From the NCBI RefSeq assembly GCF_000832985.1, contig NZ_CP009920.1:4210501-4274500 (forward strand): DNA of 64,000 bases, written 5' to 3'. The stretch comes from Priestia megaterium NBRC 15308 = ATCC 14581 (GTDB lineage: Bacteria > Bacillota > Bacilli > Bacillales > Bacillaceae_H). The translations under genes were made by a program, and so were the position numbers. The notes beneath the pieces were generated by a model. The model made no database searches. It was given only the letters and a program-made list of their open reading frames with translations, and was not told the DNA's origin. This document shows, piece after piece, positions 949 to 57,513 of this stretch (its first letter is position 1; every line of letters starts with the position of its first letter).

Positions 949-996
949 GCTGATTGGTCTACCAAAGGCTCCTGAGTAAACTCCAGGAGCCTTTTT
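949..996 (+). promoter_or_regulatory. Sulfur-leader hairpin plus terminator, copy 1
   Basis: A short hairpin at 949-969 (GCT-GA-TTGG-TCTA-CCAA-A-GGC) shares its last GGC with the 5' arm of an intrinsic terminator (GGCTCCTG 967-974 with CAGGAGCC 984-991, then five T). The two structures cannot form together, so this looks like an antiterminator/terminator pair in the operon leader, 24 nt upstream of the GTG of the first gene. Four further copies lie at 5620, 56406, 57057 and 57459. The sensing molecule or protein is unknown. Confidence 0.7.
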
Positions 997-1019
997 GCTA
1001 TAAAAAGGAGGGGGAGAAA

Positions 1020-1550
1020 GTGAGCGATGTATGTATTTTATATAACGGAAGCTCTCATAATTATCAACAAATAGCCTTAGTAAAAGATGAGCTAGAAGCT
1101 TGCTTAACCTCAAAAGGAGTGCACGCAGAAACTATTTTGTATCATGATGTACACGCTTTGAAGCAGGAAGCTCAGAAAGAAGTAAAGGTATTCATTTCAA
1201 AAGTGAACCAAGCTAAAAGTATTGTCGTTCTGTTATCTGGAGTAAATAAAACATACGTACAGTCTTTTGAACGGCTAACAAAAATATTGCCAGAAGATTT
1301 ATTGCATGAAAAAATACTTCTGCCAATTCTTGTTGGGGAAAATGTGAATTCTTTACTAAAAGCTAAATATGATTTAAAACTTTTAGCGTCTTTTTTAGGT
1401 AGACCTTATTGGCTCAGCAGTCTTTTTCTGCTGCATGAATACGTGTCTTTTGCAGGCATCAACAATATGAATGCTAAAAGTCGTTTAAAGGAAGCGGTGG
1501 ATGAGCTGATTTATAAAGCAGGTCTATCTCTTCAATCATTTATAAAATGA
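1020..1550 (+). CDS. NADPH-dependent FMN reductase (SsuE-like flavodoxin fold)
   Basis: A 176-residue protein. I chose the GTG at 1020 because AAGGAGGGGG lies 5 nt upstream; a longer upstream reading would run through the leader terminator. The flavodoxin-like layout fits the NADPH:FMN reductase family: an early beta strand VCILYNGSSH, a central VVLLSGVNKTYV strand-loop, then LLPILVGEN. SsuE-type enzymes supply FMNH2 to two-component monooxygenases. The divergent CmoO-like enzyme and the CmoJ-like enzyme at the end of this operon both need reduced FMN, so this reductase is probably their partner. First gene after the leader switch; the next gene starts 10 nt downstream. Sequence identity to characterised reductases looks low, so the cofactor is inferred. 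Confidence 0.7.
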   Translation: MSDVCILYNGSSHNYQQIALVKDELEACLTSKGVHAETILYHDVHALKQEAQKEVKVFISKVNQAKSIVVLLSGVNKTYVQSFERLTKILPEDLLHEKILLPILVGENVNSLLKAKYDLKLLASFLGRPYWLSSLFLLHEYVSFAGINNMNAKSRLKEAVDELIYKAGLSLQSFIK

Positions 1551-1560
1551 GGTGGAGAAA

Positions 1561-2085
1561 ATGAGTGAATTATTTCGATTAGCAACCGTAGAAGATGCTG
1601 AAGAACTGTTGAATTTAACACTTCGGGCATACGAGCCGATTCGAGAGCTAGGAATTAAGTTTCCAGCCGCAACGGCAACGATTGAACTTGTAAAAGAAAA
1701 CATTCAAAACAGCCGTTGCTACGTGCTGGAAAGTGATAAAAAAATCGTAGCTACGATTACAGCAAGAACGTATAAAGAAATAACGAACTGGCCTTTCTTA
1801 TGGTGGTTTGCGGTAGATCCTTTGGTTAAAAAGAAAGGAGTAGGTTCTAAACTCTTAACATGGGTTGAAGAAACAATTATTCGGGATCAATTGGGGGAAC
1901 CTGCCGTTACATTGGCTACTTCTGATCGACATCCGTGGTTGATTCCTATGTATGAAAGGAAAGGGTATGAACGTTTTTTTGAAGTCGATCAAGGAGAAGA
2001 AGGAAAAGGTGTATTCTTAAGAAAAATCTTACATCCTGAAAGATACGAGTTAGAAAAGCACAAGGAGTTGCAAAAAGCTAATTAA
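1561..2085 (+). CDS. snaA: GNAT N-acetyltransferase, SnaA (YtmI)-like
   Basis: A 174-residue GNAT protein starting at ATG 1561 behind GAGGTGG. The acetyl-CoA binding segment is visible as VKKKGVGSKLL (about residues 93-103), followed by the C-terminal MYERKGYE motif. In B. subtilis the ytmI operon begins with an acetyltransferase (SnaA) that N-acetylates S-substituted cysteines, for example S-methyl- or S-(2-succino)cysteine, before monooxygenase cleavage. Size and gene context match that role here: it sits between the FMN reductase and the CmoI-like glutaredoxin in one operon. Assignment to SnaA rests mainly on context; the GNAT fold itself is secure. No deacetylase (SndA type) is present in the window. 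Confidence 0.7.
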   Translation: MSELFRLATVEDAEELLNLTLRAYEPIRELGIKFPAATATIELVKENIQNSRCYVLESDKKIVATITARTYKEITNWPFLWWFAVDPLVKKKGVGSKLLTWVEETIIRDQLGEPAVTLATSDRHPWLIPMYERKGYERFFEVDQGEEGKGVFLRKILHPERYELEKHKELQKAN

Positions 2086-2111
2086 TAATTTAAAAGAAAA
2101 GAGGAAAAACC

Positions 2112-2378
2112 ATGTCAGCAAAGATTTTATTATGGAATCGAAAAGGTTGTCATCATTGCGAGGAACTAAAAGCATATTTTCATGAGAAAGGATATCAATA
2201 TGAAAGTATCGATGTAGAAGGAAAAGATTATTTGCGGGATTTACTTGAAATTAGATACGGTATTCGCCATGTACCGGTGGTTGAAATTGGAGACGAGGGG
2301 CAGTTTAAAGGAGTAATTGAAAAAGATTATGAACAAATAGAAAAATTGATTGAAGACTATTCATCAATCGTTAAATAG
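2112..2378 (+). CDS. cmoI: Glutaredoxin-like protein, CmoI (YtnI)-like
   Basis: An 88-residue thioredoxin-fold protein. A redox-type CHHC motif is at residues 13-16 (GCHHCEELKAYF), and RHVPVVEIGD provides the cis-proline region. Length and order match YtnI/CmoI, the small glutaredoxin-like member of the B. subtilis ytmI operon. It may reduce a disulfide or mixed disulfide formed while cysteine is released from its S-substituted derivatives; the exact reaction is not established to my knowledge. It starts 27 bp after the acetyltransferase with GAGGAAAAACC before the ATG. Confidence 0.75.
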   Translation: MSAKILLWNRKGCHHCEELKAYFHEKGYQYESIDVEGKDYLRDLLEIRYGIRHVPVVEIGDEGQFKGVIEKDYEQIEKLIEDYSSIVK

Positions 2379-2447
2379 CTGGAACATCTATTTTATTAAT
2401 TCATTAAAACAATAAATTATTTTGAGACATAGTGAGGGACAAAACAC

Positions 2448-3269
2448 ATGAAAAAACTACAGCTGACAGCTATCTTTTTATCACTTCTTTTATTACTAGC
2501 CGCTTGCGGAACACAAAATAAAGAAACAGCGGCTAACGCAAGTAAAGACAAAGTACAAAAAATTATTGTAGGAACAGGTACGCAATTTCCGAACATTTGC
2601 TTTCTGGACGATAAAGGAAATCTAACAGGGTATGACGTAGAACTTGTTAAAGAAATAGACAAACGTCTTCCAAACTATAAGTTCGAATTTAAGACAATGG
2701 ATTTTTCTAATTTACTTTTGAGCTTAGAATCGAACAAAATTGATTTAGTAGCCCATCAGATGGAAGTGAATGAAGAGAGAAAACAAAAGTTCCTGTTTAA
2801 TAAAGAACCTTATAATATCTTTCCGCTACATGTAGTTGTAAACGAAAAAAATACGTCTATTAAATCAATTAAAGATTTGAGCGGTAAAAAGGTAATTGTA
2901 GGAGCAACGAGTAATTCTGCTAACTTAATCGATAAGTATAACAAAGAACATGGAAATAAAATTAATATCGTCTATTCAGGCCAAGGATCTGATGATACAA
3001 AAACGCAGCTGAAAACAGGGCGTGCCGATGCCACGATTAGTACGCCGTTTGCAGTTGACTTTGTCAATAAACAAGCGGACGCAGAGCAAAAAGTTGTAGG
3101 GCCTGCTATTTCAAATTCAAAAGTATATTTTATGCTTCGCAAAAATGAAACAGGTTTACAAAAAGATGTGGATAAAGTGCTAAAAGAAATAAAAGAAGAC
3201 GGAACATTGACAAAATTAAGTAAAAAATGGCTGGGAGAAGACTATACAAAAGCAGCTGGAAATAACTAA
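2448..3269 (+). CDS. tcyK: Amino-acid ABC transporter substrate-binding lipoprotein, TcyK/TcyJ-like
   Basis: 273 residues. An N-terminal lipoprotein signal ends in LLLAAC, so Cys20 is the probable lipidated residue. The rest is a family-3 solute-binding protein: GTGTQFPNICFLDDKGNLTGYDVELVKEI, then DLSGKKVIVGATSNSA and the terminal LSKKWLGEDYT. In B. subtilis TcyJ and TcyK are cystine/S-cysteine binding proteins of the TcyJKLMN importer; here only one binding-protein gene is present. Followed by two permeases and one ATPase, it forms a complete importer. A hairpin at 3282-3304 separates it from the permease gene and may allow higher expression of the binding protein. Ligand is inferred from context. 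Confidence 0.82.
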   Translation: MKKLQLTAIFLSLLLLLAACGTQNKETAANASKDKVQKIIVGTGTQFPNICFLDDKGNLTGYDVELVKEIDKRLPNYKFEFKTMDFSNLLLSLESNKIDLVAHQMEVNEERKQKFLFNKEPYNIFPLHVVVNEKNTSIKSIKDLSGKKVIVGATSNSANLIDKYNKEHGNKINIVYSGQGSDDTKTQLKTGRADATISTPFAVDFVNKQADAEQKVVGPAISNSKVYFMLRKNETGLQKDVDKVLKEIKEDGTLTKLSKKWLGEDYTKAAGNN

Positions 3270-3281
3270 AGCACTTACTGT

Positions 3282-3304
3282 GACCCAAGCCTTGAACTTG
3301 GGTC
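3282..3304 (+). terminator. Intra-operon stem-loop after the binding-protein gene
   Basis: GACCCAAG (3282-3289) pairs perfectly with CTTGGGTC (3297-3304) around a 7-nt loop. Only a poor T-run follows (CTTTCG), so it is more likely a partial terminator or 3' mRNA stabiliser than a full stop, as is common after binding-protein genes. Confidence 0.55.
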
Positions 3305-3343
3305 CTTTCGCTACCTGTAGAGGGAAACAAAGGAGAGAAAAAG

Positions 3344-4042
3344 ATGGGAAAAGCATTTGATATAGAGCTGATTTTCACCTCTATTCCTCAATTATTATCT
3401 TATTTGCATATTACAATTTGGATTTTGATTGCTTCACTTGTGATTGGCAGTACCTTGGGATTGTTTATTGCCCTGCCTCGTATTTATAAAGTACCGGTGT
3501 TAAGTCAAATAGCAGCAGTTTATATTTCTTTTATGAGGGGAACCCCTATTTTAATTCAATTATTTTTAGTTTTTTACGGGATACCTGCTCTTTTACAATT
3601 GATTCATATTGACGTTTCAAGAATGGCCCCGCTTGTATTTGTTATTATCACGTATTCACTGAGCACAGCGGCGTCTTTTTCTGAAATGATGCGCGGTGCC
3701 ATTAATAGTGTAGATAAAGGGCAAACTGAAGCAGCTTATAGTATAGGAATGAGCGGAAAACAAACGTTCACTCGAATTGTGCTGCCGCAAGCTCTCGTTG
3801 TAGCCTTTCCTAACTTTGGAAATCTTGTGATTGGGTCCTTAAAAGATACGTCTTTAGCCTTTACCATTGGTGTGATGGATATGATGGGAAGAGGAGATAC
3901 CATTATCGCTGCAACGGCTCATGCAGTGGAGGTATATATCGCACTTGCCATTATTTATTATTTGGTGGCGATTATATTAGAGAAATTTTTTGTGAAATCA
4001 GAACAGAAGCTGCAAAAACATGATCAGCCTGTTCATGTATAA
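3344..4042 (+). CDS. tcyL: Amino-acid ABC transporter permease, TcyL-like
   Basis: 232 residues with about five hydrophobic segments. The HisM-type permease motif is seen as YISFMRGTPILIQLFL near the N-terminal third, and the EAA loop as EAAYSIGMSGKQTFTRIVLPQA, the contact site for the ATPase. ATG follows AAAGGAGAGAAAAAG. With the next gene it forms the heterodimeric membrane channel for the cystine/S-substituted-cysteine importer. Substrate is inferred from the operon. Confidence 0.82.
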   Translation: MGKAFDIELIFTSIPQLLSYLHITIWILIASLVIGSTLGLFIALPRIYKVPVLSQIAAVYISFMRGTPILIQLFLVFYGIPALLQLIHIDVSRMAPLVFVIITYSLSTAASFSEMMRGAINSVDKGQTEAAYSIGMSGKQTFTRIVLPQALVVAFPNFGNLVIGSLKDTSLAFTIGVMDMMGRGDTIIAATAHAVEVYIALAIIYYLVAIILEKFFVKSEQKLQKHDQPVHV

Positions 4043-4069
4043 AACGAGCTTACTAAAAGAGGTGTAAAC

Positions 4070-4780
4070 ATGATTATTGATGTACCGTTTATATGGACAG
4101 CGTTTGTAGAAATTTTAAAGGCATTACCTTTAACGCTCCTTATTACCATCGGTCCGTTACTAGGCGGGTTGCTTATTGGTATTGCTGTTGCGGCTGTGAG
4201 AATCAATTCAGTGAAAATAATAACGCCAATTGCCAACGTATACGTATCATTTTTCCGAGGAACGCCTGCTATTCTTCATATTATGGTTATTTACCTAGGG
4301 TTCCCGCTATTTATTAATAAACTATCGAGTTACTATGGATGGGGCTTCAATGCAAACAGCATTCCTATTGTCGTATTTGTATTAATCGCTTTGTCTTTTA
4401 CAGCGGGAGCTTATATGTCAGAGATTATTCGCTCCGGTTTGTTAGCTGTAGAAAAAGGACAAATTGAGGCTGCGTATGCCATTGGGATGAATCGTTTTCA
4501 ATCAATGAAACGAATTGTTTTTCCACAGGCGTTTGCTTTGTCTTTACCGAATTTATGTAATATTTTCATCGGCTTTTTGCATACGTCTTCTATCGCATTC
4601 ATCGTATCGCAAAAAGAGCTAAACGGTGCTGCTAATATCGTAGCTTCGAATAATCTCAAGTTTTTAGAAGCCTATATTGCTGCTGCTCTTATTTATTGGA
4701 TGCTGACGATGTTAATAGAAGGGATAACAGCGCTGCTTGAACGAAAATTAACTGTTTATAATCGAGGAGGGGTTGTATGA
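4070..4780 (+). CDS. tcyM: Amino-acid ABC transporter permease, TcyM-like
   Basis: 236 residues, a paralogue of the preceding permease. The [18 protein letters not shown] segment and the EAA loop [20 protein letters not shown] are visible. RBS AAAGAGGTG precedes the ATG. The stop overlaps the start of the ATPase gene by 4 nt (ATGA), which points to translational coupling. Second transmembrane subunit of the importer. Confidence 0.82.
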
Positions 4781-5550
4781 TTGCACTAACAAATATAAAA
4801 AAAACATTTGGTGATAATACAGTATTGGACGGTATTGATTTAATTGTTAAAAAAGGCGACGTTGTGACCATTTTAGGACCGAGTGGTTCTGGAAAGACTA
4901 CGTTTTTACGCTGCATTAATTTCTTAGAAAAAGCAGATGAAGGAGAAGTTTCGATTAATCAATTTACGGTTCAGTGCCAAAAGCCAAACCGCAAAGACAT
5001 TTTAACTCTTCGACAAAAAACAACGATGGTTTTTCAGCAATACAATTTGTTCAAACACAAAACCGTTATTGAAAATATTATGGAGGGGCTAGTTATTGTT
5101 CAAAAGCTGCCAAAGGAAGAAGCGAAACAACGCAGTTTAGACGTCCTTGAAAAAGTTGGGCTTGCTGAAAAAGCAAATGCTTATCCAAGTCAGTTATCAG
5201 GAGGTCAACAGCAGCGAGTGGGCATTGCTAGAGCGCTTGCTTTAAATCCTGAAGTCATTTTATTTGATGAGCCGACGTCTGCTTTGGACCCTGAACTGGT
5301 GGGTGAAGTACTGTCTGTTATTCGTAAAATTGCTGAAGAAGGAATTACAATGATCATTGTTACGCACGAAATGAGTTTTGCCCGTGAAGTTTCTAATCAC
5401 GTGGTATTTATGGACGGAGGAAAGATTGTTGAACAAGGTCATCCTGAAGACATATTTTTAAACCCAAAAGAAGATCGAACAAAGCAATTTTTCAAGCGTA
5501 TTAACCCAACGCATTCTCCTTACTCTTATATTTATGAAAAAACAATCTAA
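4777..5550 (+). CDS. tcyN: Amino-acid ABC transporter ATP-binding protein, TcyN-like
   Basis: 257 residues. Walker A GPSGSGKT at 34-41, Q-loop Gln near 87-88, ABC signature LSGGQQQR at 140-147, Walker B ILFDEP at 161-166 and the H-loop (VTHEMSF) are all intact. It belongs to the polar amino-acid transporter ATPases. Overlaps the permease gene by 4 nt. It ends shortly before an internal promoter (5571) that drives the next two genes. Confidence 0.87.
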
Positions 5551-5570
5551 TATTTTAATTAAAAACCAAC

Positions 5571-5599
5571 TTGACTCATAGGAATAATAAGTATATGAT
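5571..5599 (+). promoter_or_regulatory. Internal sulfur promoter before ribR
   Basis: TTGACT (5571-5576), 17-bp spacer, TATGAT (5594-5599). The spacer begins with CATAGG, the same position-fixed NATAGG element found after the -35-type boxes at 56335, 56953 and 57343. The sequence after the -10 box, GAATCATCAAAT (5601-5612), is identical to that at 838-849. CATAGGAATAATAA may be an operator of a sulfur repressor such as CymR; that is inference. Confidence 0.72.
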
Positions 5600-5619
5600 G
5601 GAATCATCAAATTAAACAA

Positions 5620-5678
5620 ACCGACTAGATCACTAGAGGTTCTTTGCACAATGTGTGACATTGTGCAAAGAACCTTTT
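5620..5678 (+). promoter_or_regulatory. Sulfur-leader hairpin plus terminator, copy 2
   Basis: Hairpin 5620-5640: ACC-GA-CTAG-ATCA-CTAG-A-GGT. The final GGT begins a perfect 17-bp terminator stem (5638-5654 with 5658-5674) followed by TTTT. The outer ACC/GGT pair replaces GCT/GGC of the other copies, a compensatory change. The predicted transcript starts only about 14 nt before this hairpin, so little else can act as sensor in this leader. Confidence 0.72.
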
Positions 5679-5715
5679 ATTTTTTACTAGACTTAAGGGA
5701 AGAAGGGTGAACGTA

Positions 5716-6438
5716 GTGAATAGAGGAGCATTAAAAGCTAAAACAAGCAAAAAACTTATTATAAAAGGGCAGGTTGTACCTGGAAGGCAGCAAGGAAGAC
5801 ACTTAGGGTTTCCAACAGCTAATATAGATACTCAGCATGAGGAATTAAAAAATGGCGTGTATGGTGTCCTCGTTCATCTGCGGGGACTTGAACATTTAGG
5901 AGTTATGAATGTAGGGGTTAAGCCGACATTTGGATCGAAATTATCTAAAACATTTGAGGTTCATATTCTGGATTTTAACGACGTTATTTATGGAGAGACA
6001 GTTCAATGCGACGTGATCTTTCGGGTGCGAGGAGAGAAAAAATTCCCTTCTATTGAGTTTTTAAAGCATCAAATTAAAGCTGATACGCTACAAGCAAAGC
6101 AAAGATTTCAACATATGGGCTATGTATCTAGTGAAGCTACAGCTTCCAAGCTAGGGCAAGCGAGATATTTAAATCTGCCTGATCTCCAGTTTTTTAATTG
6201 GTGCCACAGTCAATTCAGAGTCAATAAAGGGATTTACAATACAATTGATCAATGGTTTTATGACGAAGGAATTGAAAATATTCATCCTAGAAGAGTTCAC
6301 GTGATCGCTTTTTTACAATTTGCACAAGAAGGAAATGGAAGAAAGACAGAAAAAGAAAGAGTCCTTCGCTTTGGAGCAGGTGGTTTAACCAATCAATTAC
6401 GAGAATTTATGAATGGGTATGAAAAAGGAGAATGGTAA
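5716..6438 (+). CDS. ribR: RibR-like flavokinase and putative RNA-binding regulator
   Basis: 240 residues from GTG 5716, 8 nt after GAAGAAGGG; the in-frame GTG at 5707 lies inside that site. The N-terminal half is a riboflavin kinase domain with the GFPTAN motif at 31-36 and GVKPTFG and FEVHILDF blocks. The C-terminal half (from about residue 140) resembles the extra domain of B. subtilis RibR. Known: RibR lies in the ytmI operon, has flavokinase activity, and binds FMN riboswitch RNA so that riboflavin genes stay on when sulfur salvage raises FMN demand. That fits the FMN-dependent enzymes around it. RNA binding here is inferred by homology. Confidence 0.82.
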
Positions 6439-6439
6439 T

Positions 6440-7762
6440 ATGACACATCAAAGACAATTAAAGCTAGGGGCTATTATTCATGGAGTCGGAGGAAATATGG
6501 GGGCGTGGAGACACCCTGAAATTTTGTCAGATGCCAGCGTTAATTTAGGTTTTTACAAGCAGCAGGCTCAAAAAGCGGAAGAAGGAAAATTTGATTTAGT
6601 GTTCATTGCCGATGGGTTATATATCAATGAAAAATCGCTTCCGCATTTTTTGAATCGTTTTGAACCTCTTACTATTCTATCAGCACTTGCTTCTGTCACT
6701 TCTCATATTGGTTTAGTCGGCACTCTATCGACTTCGTATAGCGAGCCGTTTACGGTGGCTAGACAATTCGCTTCACTTGATCATATTAGCAGCGGCCGAG
6801 CGGGATGGAATGTTGTAACATCTCCATTAGAAGGATCTGCGCTTAACTATGGAAAAGAGCACCCGACTCATGACAAACGCTATAGAATAGCTGAAGAGTT
6901 TCTAGAAGTAACAAAGGGATTATGGGATTCTTGGGAAGATGATGCATTTATTCGAAATAAAGAAACCGGACAATTTTTTGAGGAGAAAAAGCTGCACCGA
7001 TTGCATCATAAAGGCGAATTTTTCTCTGTAGAAGGTCCGTTAAACATTGGGCGCTCAGCTCAGGGGCAGCCCGTAGTGTTTCAAGCAGGATCTTCTGAAA
7101 GCGGAAAAGATTTAGCAGCAAAAACGGCTGACGCAGTGTTTACGGGACAAGACAATTTAGAAGAAGCAAAAGCTTTTTACCAAGATGTAAAATTGAGAGC
7201 TGCAGCGCAAGGACGCAATGAAAACGAACTTTTAATTTTTCCGGGAATTGGTCCTATAATTGGTAGTACAAACGAAGAAGCCGAAAGAAAATATGAAGAA
7301 CTTTCTCAATTGGTGACAATTGAACATGCGCTAAACTACTTAGGACGCTTTTTCGATCATTTTGATTTTTCACAGTTTCCATTAGATGATGCATTTCCTG
7401 ACTTAGGAGATATAGGAAGTAATAGTTTCCGCAGTACAACCGAAAAAATTAAAGAAAACGCCAAAAAATATAAGTGGACACTGCGAGAAGCAGCGCTGCG
7501 AATTGCTACACCTAAAACACAATTTATTGGGACGCCAGAGCATATCGCTAATTTGATGGAACAGTGGTTCGAAGAAAAAGGAGCTGACGGCTTTATTATT
7601 CATTCCAGCGTTCCGCATGGTTTAGATGACTTTGTTGAATATGTTGTACCGATACTGCAAGAAAGAGGCCTGTATCGTACAAAATACGAAGGGAGTACGT
7701 TAAGAAGTAACTTGCAGTTGAATATTCCTAAAAATCGCTACACACAGGTAAAAGTTAACTGA
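6440..7762 (+). CDS. cmoJ: NtaA/SnaA/DszA-family FMNH2-dependent monooxygenase, CmoJ (YtnJ)-like
   Basis: 440 residues from ATG 6440, 9 nt after AAAGGAG; the start overlaps the ribR stop region. The luciferase-like fold is clear: the N-terminal strand [19 protein letters not shown], then FVIADGLY-type and [10 protein letters not shown] motifs, and the [19 protein letters not shown] segment. The family oxidises S- or N-containing substrates with FMNH2 from a separate reductase. In B. subtilis CmoJ oxidises N-acetylated S-alkylcysteines, giving cysteine back after deacetylation. Last gene of the operon, ended by the terminator at 7774. Substrate is inferred by synteny. Confidence 0.82.
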
Positions 7763-7773
7763 AGCGGATTCAA

Positions 7774-7798
7774 AGAGACTCGAAGGAGTCTCTTTTTT
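7774..7798 (+). terminator. Terminator after cmoJ
   Basis: AGAGACTC (7774-7781) pairs with GAGTCTCT (7786-7793) around GAAG, followed by a T-run. Confidence 0.85.
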
Positions 7799-7897
7799 AA
7801 TATTTTTAATATTGAAAATATGGTAAAATTCTTTTTGTAGGTTATTCGTTTCAGTTCATAAGACCTAAAGGGTTTTGAATACCCGGAAAGGAGTCAA

Positions 7898-8434
7898 ATG
7901 GAAAAAAGACATAAAAGTAAGAAGAAGCGTATGATCATTTCGATATCTTTATCCGTTTTTTTAGTCGGGGGAGGAGCGATAGGGTGGATATTGTACCAAA
8001 ACGGAAAAATTCCTTTTTTATCACAGCAAAGTATAAAGGCAAGTGCCATTAAAGTGGATCAACAAAAAGTTGATAAGCTGGAAAGCAGCGATCAGCAGGC
8101 AAAAGACTTTATTGCTGAACATCATGACGTACTAAATGATTTGACGGGGTGGAGTGCCATTGAGCATCCAGACTGGCCTGCCGTACAAGAAGAAGCCACA
8201 GCCATTAACAATACGATTGGCACGATTGAAGTAAAAGATTCTGTTTTAAAGAAAGACTTTCAGCATATGGAGAAGCTCGCTGGACAGCTAGAGCAGACGG
8301 AAGATCAAGCACTGTTAAAAGAGCTTCATCGTTATTTTCATGACTTAGATGTTGTGATCAATGAAGACGATGGATCAAATACATATTTTGATGTTACCAG
8401 CTATGGTAAATCAGTTGTAAAGACTTCTAAATGA
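7898..8434 (+). CDS. Membrane-anchored hypothetical protein
   Basis: 178 residues; not recognised. A basic N-terminus (about ten Lys/Arg in the first 12 residues) precedes one hydrophobic segment at about 12-33, giving an N-in, C-out single-pass anchor. The remaining part is hydrophilic, Asp/Lys-rich and probably mostly helical, with no cysteines. GGAAAGGAG lies just upstream of the ATG. Monocistronic by position, between the cmoJ terminator and an amidase gene; an envelope role is possible. Confidence 0.6.
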   Translation: MEKRHKSKKKRMIISISLSVFLVGGGAIGWILYQNGKIPFLSQQSIKASAIKVDQQKVDKLESSDQQAKDFIAEHHDVLNDLTGWSAIEHPDWPAVQEEATAINNTIGTIEVKDSVLKKDFQHMEKLAGQLEQTEDQALLKELHRYFHDLDVVINEDDGSNTYFDVTSYGKSVVKTSK

Positions 8435-8530
8435 GCCATAGCAAAAAGCTTTATACATAAAAGTAGTTTTATATAACAAACGTCTTCGCTTATTCATGCA
8501 TATGCTACGGATAAGGAGGAGACAGGTTAT

Positions 8531-9529: not shown

Positions 9530-9634
9530 TGAAAAAACCTGCTTGTTTTTTGAAGCTTTCACCCTAGTAATTTTACTTATTTTTGATAGAATATAAAGAG
9601 CTGAATCGTAAAGATGCATAAAGGTGTGATGAAA

Positions 9635-9808
9635 ATGGAAGAGCAACAAGAAGCGATTGATTTAACAAAAGTATATGTATATGAGGAGTTTCCGGATAAA
9701 GTTGCAGGCAGATGCGATAACTGTGGACATGTGAAATTTAAAAGCTTAGTAAAAGACTTTATTTTTATCCGTACATGCGCAAAGTGCGGCATGAAAAAAA
9801 GCATTTAA
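9635..9808 (+). CDS. Small zinc-ribbon-type protein
   Basis: 57 residues from ATG 9635, 8 nt after AAGGTG. Two CxxC pairs (CDNC and CAKC), about 21 residues apart, form a likely treble-clef or zinc-ribbon site. The spacer is rich in Lys and Phe. No further homology recognised. Ends at a bidirectional terminator. Confidence 0.65.
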   Translation: MEEQQEAIDLTKVYVYEEFPDKVAGRCDNCGHVKFKSLVKDFIFIRTCAKCGMKKSI

Positions 9809-9824
9809 ATCCCTACTTCTTTAT

Positions 9825-9862: not shown

Positions 9863-9864
9863 CT

Positions 9865-12577: not shown

Positions 12578-12590
12578 AATAGAGTGTTAA

Positions 12591-48639: not shown

Positions 48640-48707
48640 TGTTCACCTCAAAAGAAAGAGTTAGTGTTGAAGTTAGCCTATGTTATGGAAGGTATTTTAT
48701 ACATTTT

Positions 48708-49280: not shown

Positions 49281-49461
49281 AAAGTTGTCTCCTTTCTCAC
49301 CAAGAAGTGGATGAAGTGTGGATAATAATGTTTCTTAGAAGCTGCAGCATTCCAAAAATGCGCTTTCTATTTCATGTGCTTGATTCTTTAATTGTAAAAT
49401 ATTTCATTGGTGAGCGTAAGAGGTCAAATGGGTTTTTGAAAAATAAAAAATTATTTTTTCT

Positions 49462-49480
49462 GTTCATAATCAGTTCACAT
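49462..49480 (+). promoter_or_regulatory. Direct-repeat operator before the glycosylation operon
   Basis: GTTCATAATCAGTTCACAT: two GTTCAyAw half-sites 11 bp apart. It matches 17 of 19 positions with 54072-54090 before the two-component genes. The half-site TTCATA also fits the TTHAYA pattern of PhoP-type response regulators. Confidence 0.68.
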
Positions 49481-49520
49481 ATGCTTGTTAGACTAAAGTC
49501 AGAAATTACGAAGGAGTGAA

Positions 49521-51794: not shown

Positions 51795-51807
51795 GGAGGG
51801 CATAAAC

Positions 51808-52773
51808 ATGAGTTCCATTGTTAAATATTCTATTGTTGTTCCTGTCTATAACGAAGAAGAAGTGATTCATGAAACCTACCGCCGTCTCACAGAAGTGATG
51901 CATTCAACGAAAGAAGCTTACGAGCTTCTTTTCGTGAACGACGGCAGTAGAGATCGAACAGCAGAAATGATTAAAGAGTACAGTGAGCAAGACCCAGCGG
52001 TTGTTTTATTAGACTTTGCCCGTAACTTTGGTCATCAAATTGCTATTACAGCTGGTATGGATTATGCAAGAGGAGAGGCGGTCGTTGTGATTGATGCTGA
52101 TTTGCAAGACCCGCCCGAATTGATTTTAGAGATGATTGAAAAATGGAAGCAAGGGTTTGACGTTGTATACGCTAAGCGTACAAAGAGAAAAGGAGAAACA
52201 TACTTTAAAAAACAAACGGCTGCTATGTTTTATCGCTTCTTACGTGCGATGACCGATATTGATATTCCGCTTGATACAGGGGATTTCCGTTTGCTAGATC
52301 GCAAAGTGTGCAATCAAATGAATAGCATTCAAGAAAAAAATCGCTTTGTTCGCGGATTAGTAAGCTGGGTGGGCTTTAAGCAAATAGCAGTAGAATATGA
52401 GCGAGACGAGCGTTTGGCGGGTGAGTCGAAATATCCTTTGAAAAAGATGCTGAAGCTTTCAATGGATGGCATTACGTCTTTCTCTTATAAACCGTTGAAG
52501 CTAGCTAGCTATGCTGGTGTAACGCTATCTGGTATCGGTTTTATTTATCTTTTAGTGGTGCTGTATTTGAAGTTATTTACAGACAGCACCATCACAGGGT
52601 GGTCGTCATTAATTGTCATTCAGCTATTCTTTAGCGGCATCATTTTAATTATTCTTGGTATGATTGGAGAATATATTGGCCGCATCTACGATGAAACAAA
52701 AAATCGTCCACTCTATATCGTCCGGGAAAAGTATCAGCTTGAACCACGCAAGGAAGTATCACTTCGTGACTAA
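51808..52773 (+). CDS. ykcC: Dolichol-phosphate-mannose-synthase-like glycosyltransferase (GT2), YkcC-like
   Basis: 321 residues behind AAGGAGGG. GT2 motifs: IVVPVYNEEEVI, FVNDGSRDRT, DADLQDPPELI (DxD-type) and DTGDFRLLDRKV; two C-terminal transmembrane helices (about 231-255 and 265-292). Makes polyprenyl-phosphate-linked sugar for the preceding GT39 enzyme. Overlaps the GtrA gene by 8 bp. Confidence 0.92.
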   Translation: MSSIVKYSIVVPVYNEEEVIHETYRRLTEVMHSTKEAYELLFVNDGSRDRTAEMIKEYSEQDPAVVLLDFARNFGHQIAITAGMDYARGEAVVVIDADLQDPPELILEMIEKWKQGFDVVYAKRTKRKGETYFKKQTAAMFYRFLRAMTDIDIPLDTGDFRLLDRKVCNQMNSIQEKNRFVRGLVSWVGFKQIAVEYERDERLAGESKYPLKKMLKLSMDGITSFSYKPLKLASYAGVTLSGIGFIYLLVVLYLKLFTDSTITGWSSLIVIQLFFSGIILIILGMIGEYIGRIYDETKNRPLYIVREKYQLEPRKEVSLRD

Positions 52774-53170
52774 CAAATGGATATCTTTTATTAAATTTGC
52801 GTTAGTAGGAGTTTTAAATACACTGATTGATTTTGTAGTGTACGCACTTTTAACAACAATTGGTGTTAACTATATACTAGCGCAGTGGATTTCATACAGT
52901 GCGGGCATTTTAAACAGTTATGTCATGAATCGCAAATGGACGTTTGAGAGAAAAGAAAAAAGCAGTAAGCGTGAAGTGATTTCATTTGTGATCGTAAATT
53001 TGATCACTTTATCTCTAACATCATTTCTATTGACTGTTCTATATAATAAATGGGGGGTAGCGCTGCTACTCAGTAAACTTTTAATTACAATCGTAAGTGT
53101 CGGTATCAACTTTATTGGTACTAAATTATTTGTATTTACTACTAAAAAAGAAAGAGGGATTCATATATGA
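52766..53170 (+). CDS. GtrA-family membrane protein
   Basis: 134 residues from GTG 52766, 9 nt after AGGAAG. Four hydrophobic helices; GtrA pattern IKFALVGVLNTLIDFVVYALL and SYVMNRKWTF. GtrA-like proteins are thought to flip polyprenyl-phosphate sugars across the membrane. Between the GT2 gene (8-bp overlap) and galU (4-bp overlap), which fits that job. Confidence 0.87.
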   Translation: MTNKWISFIKFALVGVLNTLIDFVVYALLTTIGVNYILAQWISYSAGILNSYVMNRKWTFERKEKSSKREVISFVIVNLITLSLTSFLLTVLYNKWGVALLLSKLLITIVSVGINFIGTKLFVFTTKKERGIHI

Positions 53171-54054
53171 CGATAAAAAAAGCAGTTATTCCAGTAGGCG
53201 GTTTAGGAACTCGATTTTTGCCAGCGACAAAAGCGCAGCCCAAAGAAATGCTGCCAATTGTCGATAAGCCTGCTGTACAATATATTGTAGAAGAAGCTGT
53301 GAAATCAGGTATTGAAAGTATTATTTTTATTACAGGACGAAACAAAAAATCAATTGAAGACCATTTTGATAAATCAATTGAGTTAGAGCAAATGCTTGAA
53401 GAAAAACACAAGTTCCAAATGCTAAAAGAAGTACAAATGATCTCGTCAATGGCCAGCATTCACTATATTCGTCAAAAAGAGCCGTTAGGACTTGGTCATG
53501 CTATTCTTTGTGCCGAACAGTTTATTGGAGATGAGCCGTTTGCCGTTCTTCTTGGAGACGATATTATGACTTCTGAAGAACCTGCGCTCAAACAGATGAT
53601 CCAAGCGTATGAAACGACTAATCAATCAGTTATCGGAGTTCAAAAAGTGGATGTTGAAGAGGTATCAAAATACGGAATCATTCAGCCGAAAAATAAATCT
53701 GGCAGCCTTCATGAAGTGAATGACTTGATTGAAAAACCATCGATAGAACAAGCTCCGTCAACTATTGCCGTTATGGGCCGCTATATTTTAAATCCTTCTA
53801 TTTTTTCTTATCTAAAAACGATTGAAAGAGGGGTAGGAAATGAATTACAATTAACAGATGCACTGGGTGTGGTATGTGAAAAAGAGCGATTGTTTGCTCT
53901 TGAACTGGAAGGACAGCGCTTTGATATTGGAGATAAGGTAGGCTATATGAAAGCGATGGTAGAAGTTGCGTTAAAGCGCAGAGATTTACGTCAAACGTTT
54001 TTATCGTATTTGGAGGGAATTGTAGAAAAAGAACGAGCAAACAACTTCAGCTAA
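53167..54054 (+). CDS. galU: UTP-glucose-1-phosphate uridylyltransferase
   Basis: 295 residues. N-terminal nucleotidyltransferase loop GGLGTRFLPATKAQPKEMLPIVDKPAVQYIVEEA; VLLGDDIM, and EKPS with the substrate Lys; typical length. Makes UDP-glucose for wall and lipid glycosylation and thus feeds the operon's glycosyltransferases. B. subtilis homologues are GtaB and YngB. The ATG overlaps the GtrA stop. Confidence 0.94.
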   Translation: MTIKKAVIPVGGLGTRFLPATKAQPKEMLPIVDKPAVQYIVEEAVKSGIESIIFITGRNKKSIEDHFDKSIELEQMLEEKHKFQMLKEVQMISSMASIHYIRQKEPLGLGHAILCAEQFIGDEPFAVLLGDDIMTSEEPALKQMIQAYETTNQSVIGVQKVDVEEVSKYGIIQPKNKSGSLHEVNDLIEKPSIEQAPSTIAVMGRYILNPSIFSYLKTIERGVGNELQLTDALGVVCEKERLFALELEGQRFDIGDKVGYMKAMVEVALKRRDLRQTFLSYLEGIVEKERANNFS

Positions 54055-54071
54055 TAAGAGTTAATCAGTTT

Positions 54072-54090
54072 GTTCATATTCAGTTCATAT
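54072..54090 (+). promoter_or_regulatory. Direct-repeat operator before the two-component genes
   Basis: GTTCATATTCAGTTCATAT, two half-sites 11 bp apart; 17 of 19 match the site at 49462. A TATGAT box is 20 bp downstream (54110-54115). Suggests that the response regulator controls its own gene and the glycosylation operon. Confidence 0.68.
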
Positions 54091-54125
54091 TTGAAGTCTA
54101 AAATCATTGTATGATCTTATGCGGC

Positions 54126-54150
54126 TCTCTGTTTACTATAAACAGAGAGC
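54126..54150 (+). terminator. Hairpin in the leader of the two-component operon
   Basis: GCTCTCTGTTTA and TAAACAGAGAGC around CTA: 12-bp perfect stem. No T-run, so it may be an RNA stabiliser or processing signal rather than a terminator of galU. Confidence 0.45.
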
Positions 54151-54198
54151 TTACTGTGCGTAAAAGCTGGACAAACTTAGGAATAGGGAGAGACATGT

Positions 54199-54873
54199 AT
54201 GATTCAAATATTAGTTGCAGATGATGATCAACACATTCGAGAGCTGATATCATTATATTTAGAAAATCAAGGATTCAAAATTATAAAAGCAGCAGATGGT
54301 GAAGAAGCGTGGGCGAAAATGGAAGAGTTTCGAATTGATCTAGCGGTCGTTGATATCATGATGCCATTTAAAGACGGATGGGAACTAACAAAGGAAATTA
54401 AGGAGTATTTTGATATACCGGTTTTAATGGTAACAGCTAGAGGCGAATCGCATGATAAGCTAAAAGGATTTGATATCGGAACAGACGACTATGTTGTGAA
54501 GCCTTTTGATCCTCAGGAAATGGTTGCTCGTGTAAAGGCTCTTTTACGCAGGTACCAAGTAGAAGCTAACAATGTAATCTATATGGGGAATATAAAACTA
54601 GACCGTACCAAATTGGAGATGAGTGCAGGAGAAACAAGCGAACAGCTGCCGTTAAAAGAGTTTGAATTACTGTTCACGTTAGTTAGTTCTCCAGGAAAGA
54701 TTTTTACTCGTGATCAGCTTATTCAATTAATTTGGGGATATGATTATGAAGGCGATGAGCGCACGGTAGACGTTCACATAAAACGTCTGCGAGAGAGGCT
54801 TAATCATATGAAAAATGTCGGTATGGAAATCAAAACAATTCGCGGACTAGGCTATAGAGCAGAAGGGTGTTAA
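54199..54873 (+). CDS. OmpR-family response regulator
   Basis: 224 residues. Receiver with acidic pocket DDD (8-10), phosphoacceptor Asp52 (VVDIMMP), Thr of VTARG and Lys of VVKPFDP. Winged-helix DNA-binding domain to the end (GDERTVDVHIKRLRERLN and TIRGLGYRAEG). Next gene is its kinase, 1 nt downstream. The direct repeats upstream of itself and of ykcB fit OmpR-family sites. Confidence 0.92.
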   Translation: MIQILVADDDQHIRELISLYLENQGFKIIKAADGEEAWAKMEEFRIDLAVVDIMMPFKDGWELTKEIKEYFDIPVLMVTARGESHDKLKGFDIGTDDYVVKPFDPQEMVARVKALLRRYQVEANNVIYMGNIKLDRTKLEMSAGETSEQLPLKEFELLFTLVSSPGKIFTRDQLIQLIWGYDYEGDERTVDVHIKRLRERLNHMKNVGMEIKTIRGLGYRAEGC

Positions 54874-54874
54874 T

Positions 54875-56254
54875 GTGAAATCAATTTATGTAAAGCTGGT
54901 TCTGTCGTTCATCATTACAATTTTATTGAGCGTTGTGATTACCGTTGTCGTCACGACATTTCTTAGCAAGCAGAAGCTCGAAATGCGATTAGGTCAGGAT
55001 ATGGTGAAGATGGGAGAAGATTTTATCGATTTGTACGGAGCAGAAGACTCCGACAAAGCTGCAAGGTTTTTATCTAATTCATCATTCATTCATTTTTCGT
55101 TTATTATTATTGATGATGAGCATAAAGAAAAAGTATTAGGACAGCCAGGACCCCCTATTCCAATTACACCGAAAGAAGTAGGTCAAGTATTAGACGGGGA
55201 GCGTTATTCTAATTTAAACGAGGAAAAAGATGATCGTCCACAGCCAAACGTAGTGGGTCTTCCTTTTAAAGAAAATGGACGGTCGTATGCTCTATTTATT
55301 CAGTCTCATCCACAGCGGCAATTTTCAGTTATTCAAGATGTTCAAAATATCCAGCTTATTACGATTTTATTAGTAGGTATTGTATTATTTGCATATGTTT
55401 CAATGATTATTATTAAACCGATTAAGCGTCTCAGTACAGCGATGAAAGTTGTTGGACAAGGCGAATACAATGTGCAAGTCGAGCACGCAGCGAATGATGA
55501 AATCGGTCTGTTAACTAAAAATTTTAATCAAATGACTAAAGAATTAAACAAAATAGAAACAATGAGGCAAGAGTTTATTGCTAGCGTTTCGCATGAGATT
55601 CAATCACCGCTGACCTCTATTCGCGGTTTTTCAGCGGCACTTAAAGATGATATCGTCAGTGAAGATAAAAAGATACAATATTTAACCATTATTGAAAAAG
55701 AAAGTACAAGACTTTCTCAGCTTAGTTCCAATTTGCTAAAGCTTGCTTCTCTAGACTCTGAACATCAAACGCTAATGCTGCAGCAATACCGGTTAGATGA
55801 ACAAATCAGGCATGTGGTCATGGCTTTAGAACCTCAGTGGACAAAAAAGAACATAGAAATTGACCTTGATTTATCCAATGTTCAAATAGAAGCAGATAAA
55901 GATTTGTTAGAGCAAGTTTGGCTGAATTTAGTAACAAATGCTATTAAATATACGCCTGAAAATGGATTTGTGAAAATATCTATTCATCAAAAAAACGAGG
56001 AAATAGACGTGAAAATAAAGGATAATGGAATTGGTATTGCCGAAGAAGATCAAAAATATATTTTTGAAAGCTTTTATAAAGTAGATAAATCGAGAACGTT
56101 AAAAGGAAGCGGCCTCGGTCTAGCCATTACAAAAAAAATTGTTCGGCTGCATGAGGGCGCAGTACGTGTTGAAAGCAAAAAAGAACAAGGAAGCATTTTT
56201 ACGGTAACCTTGCCTATCCAAAAAAATAGGGCTAAAAAAGACTCGTCTGTGTAA
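54875..56254 (+). CDS. Sensor histidine kinase
   Basis: 459 residues from GTG 54875. Transmembrane helices at about 7-29 and 161-181 bound an outer sensor of some 130 residues; HAMP follows. The phosphoaccepting His240 lies in SVSHEIQSPLTSIRGF (an S in place of T after the usual R/Q). N-box LVTNAIKYTPENG, G1 DNGIGIAEED and G2 GSGLGLAI are intact. Partner of the preceding regulator. The signal is unknown; the neighbours suggest envelope stress or polymer status. Confidence 0.92.
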   Translation: MKSIYVKLVLSFIITILLSVVITVVVTTFLSKQKLEMRLGQDMVKMGEDFIDLYGAEDSDKAARFLSNSSFIHFSFIIIDDEHKEKVLGQPGPPIPITPKEVGQVLDGERYSNLNEEKDDRPQPNVVGLPFKENGRSYALFIQSHPQRQFSVIQDVQNIQLITILLVGIVLFAYVSMIIIKPIKRLSTAMKVVGQGEYNVQVEHAANDEIGLLTKNFNQMTKELNKIETMRQEFIASVSHEIQSPLTSIRGFSAALKDDIVSEDKKIQYLTIIEKESTRLSQLSSNLLKLASLDSEHQTLMLQQYRLDEQIRHVVMALEPQWTKKNIEIDLDLSNVQIEADKDLLEQVWLNLVTNAIKYTPENGFVKISIHQKNEEIDVKIKDNGIGIAEEDQKYIFESFYKVDKSRTLKGSGLGLAITKKIVRLHEGAVRVESKKEQGSIFTVTLPIQKNRAKKDSSV

Positions 56255-56277
56255 GTTCATGCAGATGAGTCTTTTTT
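56234..56277 (+). terminator. Terminator after the kinase
   Basis: AAAAAAGACTCGTCTG and CAGATGAGTCTTTTTT arms; the 5' arm overlaps the gene end. Confidence 0.85.
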
Positions 56278-56334
56278 ATTAGGTCAAAGATATAAAAAAA
56301 ATTAATAATATCTATTTATTTTTTTAATCCCTAC

Positions 56335-56363
56335 TTGACATATAGGTAAAGTGTAAATAATAT
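56335..56363 (+). promoter_or_regulatory. Sulfur promoter before the Cys-rich mini-ORF and yezD
   Basis: TTGACA (56335-56340), 17-bp spacer starting TATAGGTAAAGTGT, TAATAT (56358-56363). ATAGGTAAAGTGT also occurs at the same position in the promoter at 57343. Likely target of a sulfur-responsive repressor. Confidence 0.78.
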
Positions 56364-56405
56364 AGATAGTATAAATCTTTTGAAAAAATTGGGATGCTAA
56401 AGAAG

Positions 56406-56458
56406 CTGATCGGTCAACCGAAGGCTCATACTTGTTCGCTACTAGTGTGGGCCTTTTC
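56406..56458 (+). promoter_or_regulatory. Sulfur-leader hairpin plus terminator, copy 3
   Basis: Hairpin 56406-56426: GCT-GA-TCGG-TCAA-CCGA-A-GGC. Terminator stem GGCTCATACT (56424-56433) with AGTGTGGGCC (56445-56454), then TTTT. The inner stem TCGG/CCGA covaries with TTGG/CCAA of copy 1. Confidence 0.72.
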
Positions 56459-56519
56459 TGTACATTAGTTGTGGTCATTAAAATCTCAATCTTCAACTGA
56501 ACATATGGGGAGGATTACC

Positions 56520-56591
56520 ATGTATTTATCTTCTGCACATTATACAAGTACTTATAGATGTTGTTCGCTTTGTTTATTCAACTGCAACTAA
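56520..56591 (+). CDS. Cysteine-rich 23-residue mini-ORF, possible leader peptide
   Basis: ATG 56520 lies 6-7 nt after GGGGAGG, a strong site. The peptide begins MYLSSAHYTSTYRCCSLC and contains four cysteines in its last ten residues, including a CC pair. It ends 35 nt before yezD, in the leader of a sulfur-controlled operon. Ribosome stalling at Cys codons when cysteine is short would be a way to couple translation to cysteine supply; no alternative terminator is seen between it and yezD, so the effect may be translational. It could also be a small metal- or sulfide-binding peptide. Confidence 0.55.
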   Translation: MYLSSAHYTSTYRCCSLCLFNCN

Positions 56592-56626
56592 AATATAAAT
56601 TTATCTATGAATAGGAGAATGATAAA

Positions 56627-56791
56627 ATGGCTTCAATTACACAAGAAAAATTAGATTATATTGTTAAATTACTAACTGAAATCAACTATGGATCTGTACT
56701 AATTACTCTTCACGATGGACAAATTACTCAAGTGGACAGCACGGAAAAAAACCGCTTTTTAGCTAAAAGCAAAGTAGCAAGCCACAAATAA
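56627..56791 (+). CDS. yezD: YezD-family (DUF2292) small protein
   Basis: 54 residues behind AGGAG. Family pattern INYGSVLITLHDGQITQVDSTEKNR is clear (G-S-hydrophobic, then HDGxxxQxDxTEK). YezD-like proteins are small, and often lie beside sulfate or sulfonate transport genes in Firmicutes; their role is unknown. Third element of the unit after the leader switch and the Cys-rich mini-ORF. Confidence 0.82.
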   Translation: MASITQEKLDYIVKLLTEINYGSVLITLHDGQITQVDSTEKNRFLAKSKVASHK

Positions 56792-56806
56792 GCCTAATTA
56801 AATACG

Positions 56807-56880
56807 TATTTAGAGAAACTGAAGGGCCAGCCTAGCTAGCGAATGCTTGACGGCGGGGCAAGCAAGTACTGTGCTAAATA
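56807..56880 (+). other. GC-rich structured stretch between yezD and the FbpA-like gene
   Basis: TATTTAG (56807-56813) can pair with CTAAATA (56874-56880), closing about 60 nt that is GC-rich compared with its AT-rich surroundings. Inside is hairpin TGCTTG/CAAGCA (56844-56864). Junction-like purine-rich segments (GAAACTGAAGGG, GGCGGGG) give it a riboswitch-like look, but I cannot place it in a known class. A 20-codon frame from 56843 has no good RBS. Confidence 0.35.
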
Positions 56881-56895
56881 TAGAAAACGTGCGTA

Positions 56896-56956
56896 TTCGA
56901 ATTAAAATTGACTTTCTTTCCGGTAGAATATTTAGAATTTTTCGAATTAAAATTGA
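56896..56956 (+). repeat. 16-bp direct repeat with -35-like boxes
   Basis: TTCGAATTAAAATTGA occurs at 56896-56911 and 56941-56956. Each copy ends in the start of a -35-like box (TTGACT and TTGAGT). The second is followed by TATAGG, the element common to the sulfur promoters, so it is the likely promoter of copy 4. Confidence 0.6.
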
Positions 56957-56985
56957 GTTATAGGTTGTATGAGTATGACGATGAG

Positions 56986-57023
56986 AAGTATAAAGCTTCT
57001 AAAGCAGCAGCTTTATACTTTTT
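56986..57023 (+). terminator. First leader terminator before the FbpA-like gene
   Basis: AAGTATAAAGC (56986-56996) and GCTTTATACTT (57010-57020) form an 11-bp stem followed by T-rich sequence; it precedes the copy 4 switch, so this leader has two terminators in series. Confidence 0.7.
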
Positions 57024-57056
57024 AAAATTATGAAAATCTGACAGTTTCATTCCTGT

Positions 57057-57107
57057 GCTGACCGGATTACCGAAGGCTTCTGACCTGTGTTAGGAGTCTT
57101 TTTTTAT
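57057..57107 (+). promoter_or_regulatory. Sulfur-leader hairpin plus terminator, copy 4
   Basis: Hairpin 57057-57077: GCT-GA-CCGG-ATTA-CCGA-A-GGC (three inner pairs, CGG/CCG). Terminator stem GGCTTCTGAC (57075-57084) with GTTAGGAGTC (57089-57098), three G-T pairs, then nine or so T. The least perfect copy but with the same layout. Confidence 0.68.
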
Positions 57108-57137
57108 TCTTAAATTAATATAATAGGAGGAGAAAAG

Positions 57138-57290
57138 ATGGAAAATTTATTACGAGCAGCGGTGCGGCAAAGAAAACAATACCTCATTGAAGAGTTACTG
57201 AAAAAAGGGATTTACAAAAAAGAAAACCATCATCTTTTTGAACTTACACTCTCTGACTTAGAAAAAGAGTATCTGGCACGCAGTAAGTAA
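57138..57290 (+). CDS. FbpA-family (Fur-regulated basic protein A type) small protein
   Basis: 50 residues from ATG 57138 behind AGGAGGAG. The family pattern LLRAAVRQRKQYLIEELLKKG, then HLFELTLSDLEKEYL is clear. B. subtilis FbpA is a small basic protein of the Fur iron-sparing response. Here the gene sits among sulfur leader switches and I see no Fur box, so it may be an adaptor for sulfur limitation rather than iron. Function inferred only by family. Confidence 0.78.
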   Translation: MENLLRAAVRQRKQYLIEELLKKGIYKKENHHLFELTLSDLEKEYLARSK

Positions 57291-57342
57291 GGAAAGTACG
57301 TAAAAAGAACTAAAATAAGTGTAAAAAAGATTAAAAACCCAG

Positions 57343-57371
57343 TTGACTAATAGGTAAAGTGTGTTTATTAT
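57343..57371 (+). promoter_or_regulatory. Sulfur promoter before the sulfate transporter operon
   Basis: TTGACT (57343-57348), 17-bp spacer starting AATAGGTAAAGTGT, TATTAT (57366-57371). Shares ATAGGTAAAGTGT with the promoter at 56335. Confidence 0.78.
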
Positions 57372-57458
57372 AAAAACAAGAATAAATTGTCTTTTCAGAA
57401 AGTATCTTCTTTTTATTCTTACGAATAAATTTAATAAGAATAATTTAAGAGCATATAC

Positions 57459-57513
57459 GCTGATCAGACTAACTGAAGGCTGCTTCTCTTTTCAAAGAGA
57501 TAGCGGCCTTTTT
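57459..57513 (+). promoter_or_regulatory. Sulfur-leader hairpin plus terminator, copy 5
   Basis: Hairpin 57459-57480: GCT-GA-TCAG-ACTAA-CTGA-A-GGC (5-nt loop). Terminator stem 57478-57491 with 57494-57508 (14 pairs, one bulged T), then TTTTT. TCAG/CTGA is a further compensatory version of the inner stem. 30 nt before the sulfate-binding protein ATG. Confidence 0.75.

Follow-up and report, generated by a model that had tools for sequence, protein, structure and literature searches.

Results

Five hairpins and their terminators in a region of sulfur genes

The stretch of DNA analysed here, referred to below as the window, comprises 64,000 nucleotides (nt) of Priestia megaterium NBRC 15308 = ATCC 14581 (contig NZ_CP009920.1, positions 4,210,501 to 4,274,500). 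It carries five copies of a short RNA hairpin, each overlapping a transcription terminator, together with the gene for a small protein of the DUF2292 family, YezD, and it is the relationship between these two elements that concerns us (Table 1). A first-pass annotation of the window had reported five copies; all are present, four at the positions given and the third displaced by one base (56405-56425 rather than 56406-56426). Its account of the architecture holds as well. The hairpins span 21-22 nt and follow the layout NNN-GA-4 bp-4/5 nt loop-A-GGN, with inner stems that differ from copy to copy and outer arms that read GCT/GGC in four copies and ACC/GGT in one; a C.A mismatch leaves copy 4 with three inner pairs.

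Copy 1 is found upstream of an SsuE-like reductase and a cystine-type ATP-binding cassette (ABC) cluster (best hits, below the NCBIfam cut-offs), copy 2 upstream of a riboflavin kinase, which we take to be RibR-like, accompanied by a monooxygenase, and copy 5 upstream of a sulfate ABC transporter whose permeases and ATPase follow the binding-protein gene and reach position 61510. The proposal that every copy precedes sulfur genes needs qualification: copies 3 and 4 do lie within the sulfate-transport island, but the genes immediately behind them are yezD and an FbpA-like gene, not sulfur enzymes.

Table 1. Hairpins, overlapping terminators and adjacent genes in the window
Feature	Position	Strand	Sequence or family
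Hairpin copy 1	949..969	+	GCT GA TTGG TCTA CCAA A GGC
Terminator overlapping copy 1	966..996	+	
SsuE-like flavin mononucleotide (FMN) reductase, first gene of its cluster	1020..1550	+	TIGR03567 best hit, below cut-off
Hairpin copy 2	5620..5640	+	ACC GA CTAG ATCA CTAG A GGT
Terminator overlapping copy 2	5637..5678	+	closing arm ACC
Riboflavin kinase	5707..6438	+	PF01687, Pfam cut-off met
Hairpin copy 3, before yezD	56405..56425	+	GCT GA TCGG TCAA CCGA A GGC
Terminator overlapping copy 3	56422..56457	+	
yezD, small protein of the DUF2292 family (54 aa), candidate trans-acting factor	56627..56791	+	PF10055
Hairpin copy 4	57057..57077	+	GCT GA CCGG ATTA CCGA A GGC
Terminator overlapping copy 4	57074..57105	+	
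FbpA-like small protein (50 aa)	57138..57290	+	PF13076
Hairpin copy 5	57459..57480	+	GCT GA TCAG ACTAA CTGA A GGC
Terminator overlapping copy 5	57477..57513	+	
Sulfate ABC transporter substrate-binding protein	57543..58607	+	TIGR00971, over cut-off

The hairpin shares its 3' arm with the base of the terminator

In each window copy the 3' arm and the A preceding it form the base of a terminator stem that ends in a T run, as the first reading of the sequence had it for the arm; the shared tetranucleotide is AGGC, or AGGT in copy 2. The free terminators (-12.4 to -26.7 kcal/mol) are more stable than the free hairpins (-4.5 to -6.5 kcal/mol), so that the hairpin, to form in full, should need assistance. 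When each whole leader is folded to minimum energy, the inner stem persists beside the terminator, and the claim that the two structures exclude one another thus stands for the outer arm and fails for the inner stem.

The overlap extends well beyond the window. We assembled 81 hairpins from loci brought in by DUF2292 (in the order, the class, the phylum and plasmids) or by our hairpin model R3, none of them picked for a terminator. The terminator stem begins on the 3' arm in 65, against 16.4 expected after shuffling (a fold-based first pass had given 58 of the 81); the remaining 16 include imperfect terminators and chance hairpins. The closing arm of the terminator follows changes in the hairpin arms: GCT/GGC is continued by GCC, ACC/GGT by ACC (window copy 2), GCT/AGC by GCT (the organism's own sulfonate-operon leader) and TCC/GGA by TCC (L225).

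Among 59 distinct hairpins, two-sided changes affect five of the seven pairs, and the covariation score of 0.559 compares with 0.290 after shuffling, none of 500 shuffles scoring as high. A smaller set of 39 hairpins gave 0.445 versus 0.224. The proportions of paired cells, 99.8% and 99.6% respectively, are inflated, since most rows were chosen by a finder that demands pairing. The inner stems encountered include TCGG/CCGA, TTGG/CCAA, TCAG/CTGA, CTAG/CTAG, TTAG/CTAA and CTTG/CAAG, as well as CTAT/ATAG, CCAG/CTGG, CTGG/CCAG, CCGG/CCGG, CCAT/ATGG and CCGT/ACGG. Within the internal loop neither GA nor A ever varies, but the finder required both; the A that precedes the loop's closing pair is nearly invariant. 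At gathering score, Rfam 15 has no match in the window, in keeping with the earlier view that no described RNA family fits, and its eight matches in 20 further loci (S-box, purine, PyrR) all leave the hairpin uncovered.

Further copies precede sulfur genes

The first-pass annotation had suggested a search for additional copies near sulfur genes in related genomes, and such copies were found. The pattern GCTGAN{11,13}AGGCN{10,40}GYCTTTT, which demands no pairing, occurs at 38 places in 10 genomes of the genus, and its reversed control at none, which puts the window pattern beyond chance. Four inner pairs can form in 35 of these matches, three in two (window copy 4 and an A/T-only match in genome G009, judged to be chance) and fewer in one. 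Across the order, 229 of 397 genomes contain a match, many of which are chance according to the control columns. Three more copies were inspected in the organism's own genome: before cysH (C6:1767743, minus strand), upstream of a TauE/SafE gene (C6:5313607, minus strand; the ortholog in L004 belongs to PF01925), and ahead of genes for an ABC ATPase and a binding protein of the SsuA family (C6:1564568, minus strand). Model R3 returns nine matches in this genome at E<=0.05, the ninth (C6:189882, E 0.01) from the profile match alone. In genomes G364 and G220 of the order, likewise, hairpin and terminator lead into an ABC ATPase gene, and the gene behind it encodes, by eye, a binding protein of the sulfonate type. 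Two loci show tandem hairpin-terminator pairs ahead of a single sulfate-binding-protein gene (L034:11294-11545 and L081:425-581).

For a survey of the regulon, we took the first open reading frame (ORF) of at least 80 amino acids (aa) behind 144 hairpins with a terminator, a non-random collection in which many loci had been picked for a good hairpin or for DUF2292. Twelve hairpins had no such ORF; the others yielded 124 distinct ORFs, 108 of them outside Priestia loci, and 106 were scanned after omission of two that repeat another. Family matches comprise cysH (20), sulfate-binding protein (17), FMN reductase (6), ATP-sulfurylase (5), NMT1/SsuA-like (5) and TauE/SafE (3), that is, 56 of the 106 ORFs in sulfur families provided that none is counted in two. 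Ten more encode ABC ATPases whose substrate is uncertain. CitMHS (3), Amidohydro_2 (3), luciferase-like (2), radical SAM (2) and MarR (2) proteins are also represented, and the rest are scattered, a few being spurious.

Some individual loci deserve mention. In two from other classes (L160 and L183) the hairpin is followed by a radical SAM gene whose best family, below cut-off, is NifB, hinting that the regulon may take in the synthesis of sulfur-heavy cofactors. At L072:610-771 the first ORF is a small basic protein of the FbpB family (PF13040, over cut-off), and similar ORFs occur at L074 and L075. Ahead of window copies 2, 3 and 5, TTGAC sites (5571-5605, 56335-56369 and 57343-57377) have ATAGG in common right after the hexamer, and the TauE/SafE-gene copy has a similar TTGACTTCTAGG; a CymR box or another shared operator may lie here.

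Hairpin and YezD occur in the same genomes

The same 397 genomes of the order were searched with hairpin model R2 and with PF10055, the Pfam profile of DUF2292. R2 was positive in 220 (E<=0.1) and PF10055 in 190. With R2 at E<=1e-3, 179 genomes have both, eight the hairpin only, 11 YezD only and 199 neither (p=3e-87). In a class-wide set of 151 genomes, at least 11 of which also belong to the order set, R3 at E<=0.01 and PF10055 gave 53 with both, two with R3 only (G463 and G536, counted from profile matches alone), six with YezD only and 90 with neither (p=2.8e-31). These p values ignore kinship; within 26 genera, mostly mixed and totalling 166 genomes, the observed count of 84 compares with 62.8 under within-genus permutation, and none of 20,000 permutations reached 84.

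Most discordant genomes of the order set lose their force on inspection. Among those scored as hairpin-only, three (G205, G239, G281) have no terminator overlapping the match, as judged by re-search with R3 and inspection; the matches of G101 include a leader with PyrR sites nearby (L232); no strict hairpin was found in G342; and the matches of G070 and G349 were not recovered on re-search with R3. Among the 11 scored as YezD-only, R3 does find hairpins in G030, G363 and G381, with a T run behind them in L225, L226 and L229, and six others have weak or partial PF10055 matches.

Loss of sulfate assimilation was considered as a cause of the co-occurrence and ruled out. From the 170 genomes with neither R2 (E<=0.1) nor PF10055, 72 were sampled, and 36 of these have cysH over cut-off; absence of hairpin and YezD is therefore not just pathway loss. 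The hairpin stands before sulfur-uptake genes in many Bacillota, and its near restriction to YezD-bearing genomes makes YezD its probable binding partner, a concrete candidate that the first-pass annotation lacked.

yezD genes adjoin hairpins, and some cysH leaders also carry an S-box

Linkage was assessed in loci fetched for DUF2292 alone, counting hairpins on the same strand from -650 to +350 nt. One lies near the DUF2292 gene in 24 of 30 class loci (two of them from the organism's own order), against 0.36 expected, and in 8 of 27 phylum loci, against 0.40 expected; the 27 remain from 30 after omission of two short stretches (L162, L177) and the window's own locus (L165). Hairpins farther away number none and three on the same strand, and three and three on the opposite strand, in the class and phylum sets respectively. 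The eight hairpin-bearing phylum loci lie outside the organism's class; our guess is that they are Clostridia.

Two arrangements recur. The first was seen for 11 of the 22 distinct proteins that tblastn recovered: the yezD stop codon lies between -5 and +6 nt relative to the hairpin, with cysH next in line. In the second, seen in the window, the hairpin stands ahead of yezD. A yezD gene immediately preceding the hairpin is frequent, and occurs in other classes of the phylum as well. Of 20 loci scanned, four (L007, L109, L125, L134) have an S-box (RF00162) ahead of the hairpin. The organism's own cysH leader (L007:1537-1815) consists of an S-box, a 17-codon ORF, the hairpin and the terminator, then cysH; from its sequence, the ORF resembles the beginning of a cysH-type yezD that has been shortened, and some relatives of the genus have a full-length yezD in this position. 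Since the window yezD is the only PF10055 match in its genome (E<=0.001), any action of YezD on cysH would be in trans.

The YezD protein

The window YezD scores 57.8 bits against a curated PF10055 cut-off of 22 and is 100% identical to YezD of P. aryabhattai B8W22. It has 54 residues and a computed isoelectric point of 8.1; AlphaFold2, run with six sequences, predicts a helix (residues 6-18) and two strands (24-29 and 32-38). In 83 family cores, selected by a motif of our own that itself fixes G17 and R38, Q at core position 30 and E at position 35 never vary, though the motif allowed other residues. Conserved residues of the window protein are G22, Q35, E40, K41 and R43. Alba was considered as a relative and set aside, the sequence match (E 0.39) being non-significant. 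Pfam describes PF10055 as an uncharacterised small protein, and our literature search found no title or abstract on the function of YezD or DUF2292.

Published work touches on the expression and context of yezD. For Bacillus subtilis, Table 1 of one study has yezD alongside ssuABCD, tcyJ/K and rbfK, with values of 2.52 and -4.17, in our reading the log2 changes on biofilm entry and on serine starvation (PMC3862929). In another, 14 days of starvation raised yezD along with other genes, and viability was not reduced by deleting it (PMC6385201). A third places it next to a sulfate-transporter gene (PMC7953295).

In five loci of the phylum set (L170, L172, L173, L174, L176) the encoded protein carries the DUF2292 repeat twice or has GDGI at its C terminus; these proteins probably form a separate branch of the family, and only L172 has a same-strand hairpin nearby. 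A further yezD is found on a Priestia plasmid (L186:4001-4198) near LysR, GNAT and MetQ-like genes, and nine Priestia plasmid records have such a match.

Discussion

From computed structure, covariation, terminator overlap, regulon content and co-occurrence, we infer RNA binding by YezD, the direction of control and a sulfur signal. In our estimate there is a probability of about 0.7 that the hairpin works as an antiterminator for a regulon of sulfur acquisition, that it depends on a bound protein factor to do so, and that this factor is YezD or a complex that includes it. In the absence of the factor, the more stable terminator would take the 3' arm and transcription would stop in the leader. 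When present, YezD or a complex containing it would hold the full hairpin as it emerges from RNA polymerase, keeping AGGC away from the stem base that abuts the T run and letting the polymerase enter the operon. With its gene commonly just before or behind a hairpin, YezD would regulate the operon that encodes it and, in trans, distant copies as well. The anatomy fits antitermination inasmuch as a hairpin held in full deprives the terminator of its base. The earlier suggestion of an undescribed, probably protein-bound antiterminator of sulfur genes gains support from the further sulfur-gene copies, the two-sided covariation and the lack of an Rfam match in the window.

Several observations weigh against this interpretation. 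Whole-leader folds keep inner stem and terminator together, so that the outer three pairs alone compete, and further pair types are no more numerous than in shuffles (9 versus 9.2 over the 59 hairpins). G304 is a true exception, with a convincing hairpin before a TauD-family gene and no PF10055 match, while no hairpin was found in G219 and G283 despite good PF10055 matches. Nineteen of the 27 phylum DUF2292 loci have no nearby hairpin, and the family may do other things too. The structural model of YezD is modest (predicted local distance difference test 72, predicted template modelling score 0.44), and Foldseek found no PDB match for it at E<=0.001. Finally, co-occurrence and linkage do not prove contact, and YezD could be only a co-regulated member of the regulon.

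The latter point leads to the foremost alternative, namely that the antiterminator is real but is bound by a small basic protein of the FbpA/FbpB type, by RibR or by an unseen factor. FbpA-like or FbpB-like genes do lie directly behind some copies (window copy 4 and L072, with similar ORFs at L074 and L075), and the riboflavin kinase behind copy 2 resembles RibR. YezD, however, tracks the hairpin in both the order and the class sets, while FbpA (PF13076) does not: of 40 hairpin/YezD genomes picked from the list, 32 contain the family, as do 25 of the first 40 genomes with neither. This independence led us to reject FbpA-like proteins as the general factor, and we regard the alternative as a whole as unlikely. 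Quite improbable, in our view, is a minimal riboswitch that senses a small sulfur metabolite independently of protein. The invariant GA/A internal loop, the nearly invariant A before the loop's closing pair and the metabolic content of the regulon would suit such an element, but it would have to work with just 21 nt and a tiny internal loop, it leaves the co-occurrence with one protein unexplained, and S-box riboswitches are already present upstream in four hairpin loci.

We consider it very improbable that binding of the protein promotes termination or works by another route such as mRNA stability. The direction of control is indeed read from the anatomy, but with AGGC common to both structures and the terminator arm tracking changes in the hairpin arms, holding the hairpin should oppose termination. 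That the hairpins are chance or decorated terminators, short inverted repeats that happen to precede terminators, can be discounted for practical purposes: the motif is short, our models also match where no terminator fits (G205, G239, G281) and many order-wide pattern matches are chance, but the genus control (0 versus 38), the covariation, the regulon content and the link to YezD all contradict it.

The proposal that YezD acts through the hairpin invites comparison with the BglG/SacY/LicT antiterminators, proteins built from CAT RNA-binding and PRD domains. Both systems use a short hairpin whose internal loop is asymmetric and which overlaps a leader terminator at its 5' arm (as in the 65 of 81 hairpins above); as proposed here, a small RNA-binding unit would stabilise it. 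The RAT RNA differs in size and sequence, and the regulon is one of sulfur rather than of phosphotransferase-system sugars; a Pfam scan of YezD for domains of the CAT/PRD kind returns PF10055 only. Closer in subject are the sulphonate (ssu) genes of B. subtilis, regulated at transcription initiation and termination according to the title of the report by van der Ploeg, Barone and Leisinger (2001, Mol Microbiol 39:1356; cited in PMC10708946); in G364 and G220, hairpin and terminator stand before sulfonate-type ABC genes. The S-box also controls sulfur genes from the leader, and an S-adenosylmethionine (SAM) element is noted ahead of cysH in B. methanolicus (PMC4342826). It is a large metabolite aptamer, in contrast to the hairpin, a separate element further downstream, and has no match in the window. 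Searches of the open-licence literature returned no paper describing this hairpin. The mechanism belongs to a known class; in the literature searched, neither this family of RNAs nor the protein family proposed here is described for it.

On a broader view, we think it rather probable that DUF2292/YezD proteins, with some 50 residues, represent a new class of RNA-binding antiterminators which, together with the 21-nt hairpin, would constitute an old form of sulfur control spread across several classes of the phylum and stacked behind an S-box in some cysH leaders. Both site and protein would, to our knowledge, rank among the smallest in any antitermination system, and their small size would make them handy parts for the control of transcription. 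An S-box and a hairpin in series on one cysH transcript would read SAM and a second sulfur signal. If these ideas are correct, a family of proteins without a function gains one that is directly testable, the termination control reported by title for the B. subtilis sulphonate genes acquires a candidate factor, and a compact RNA regulon for sulfur uptake is defined.

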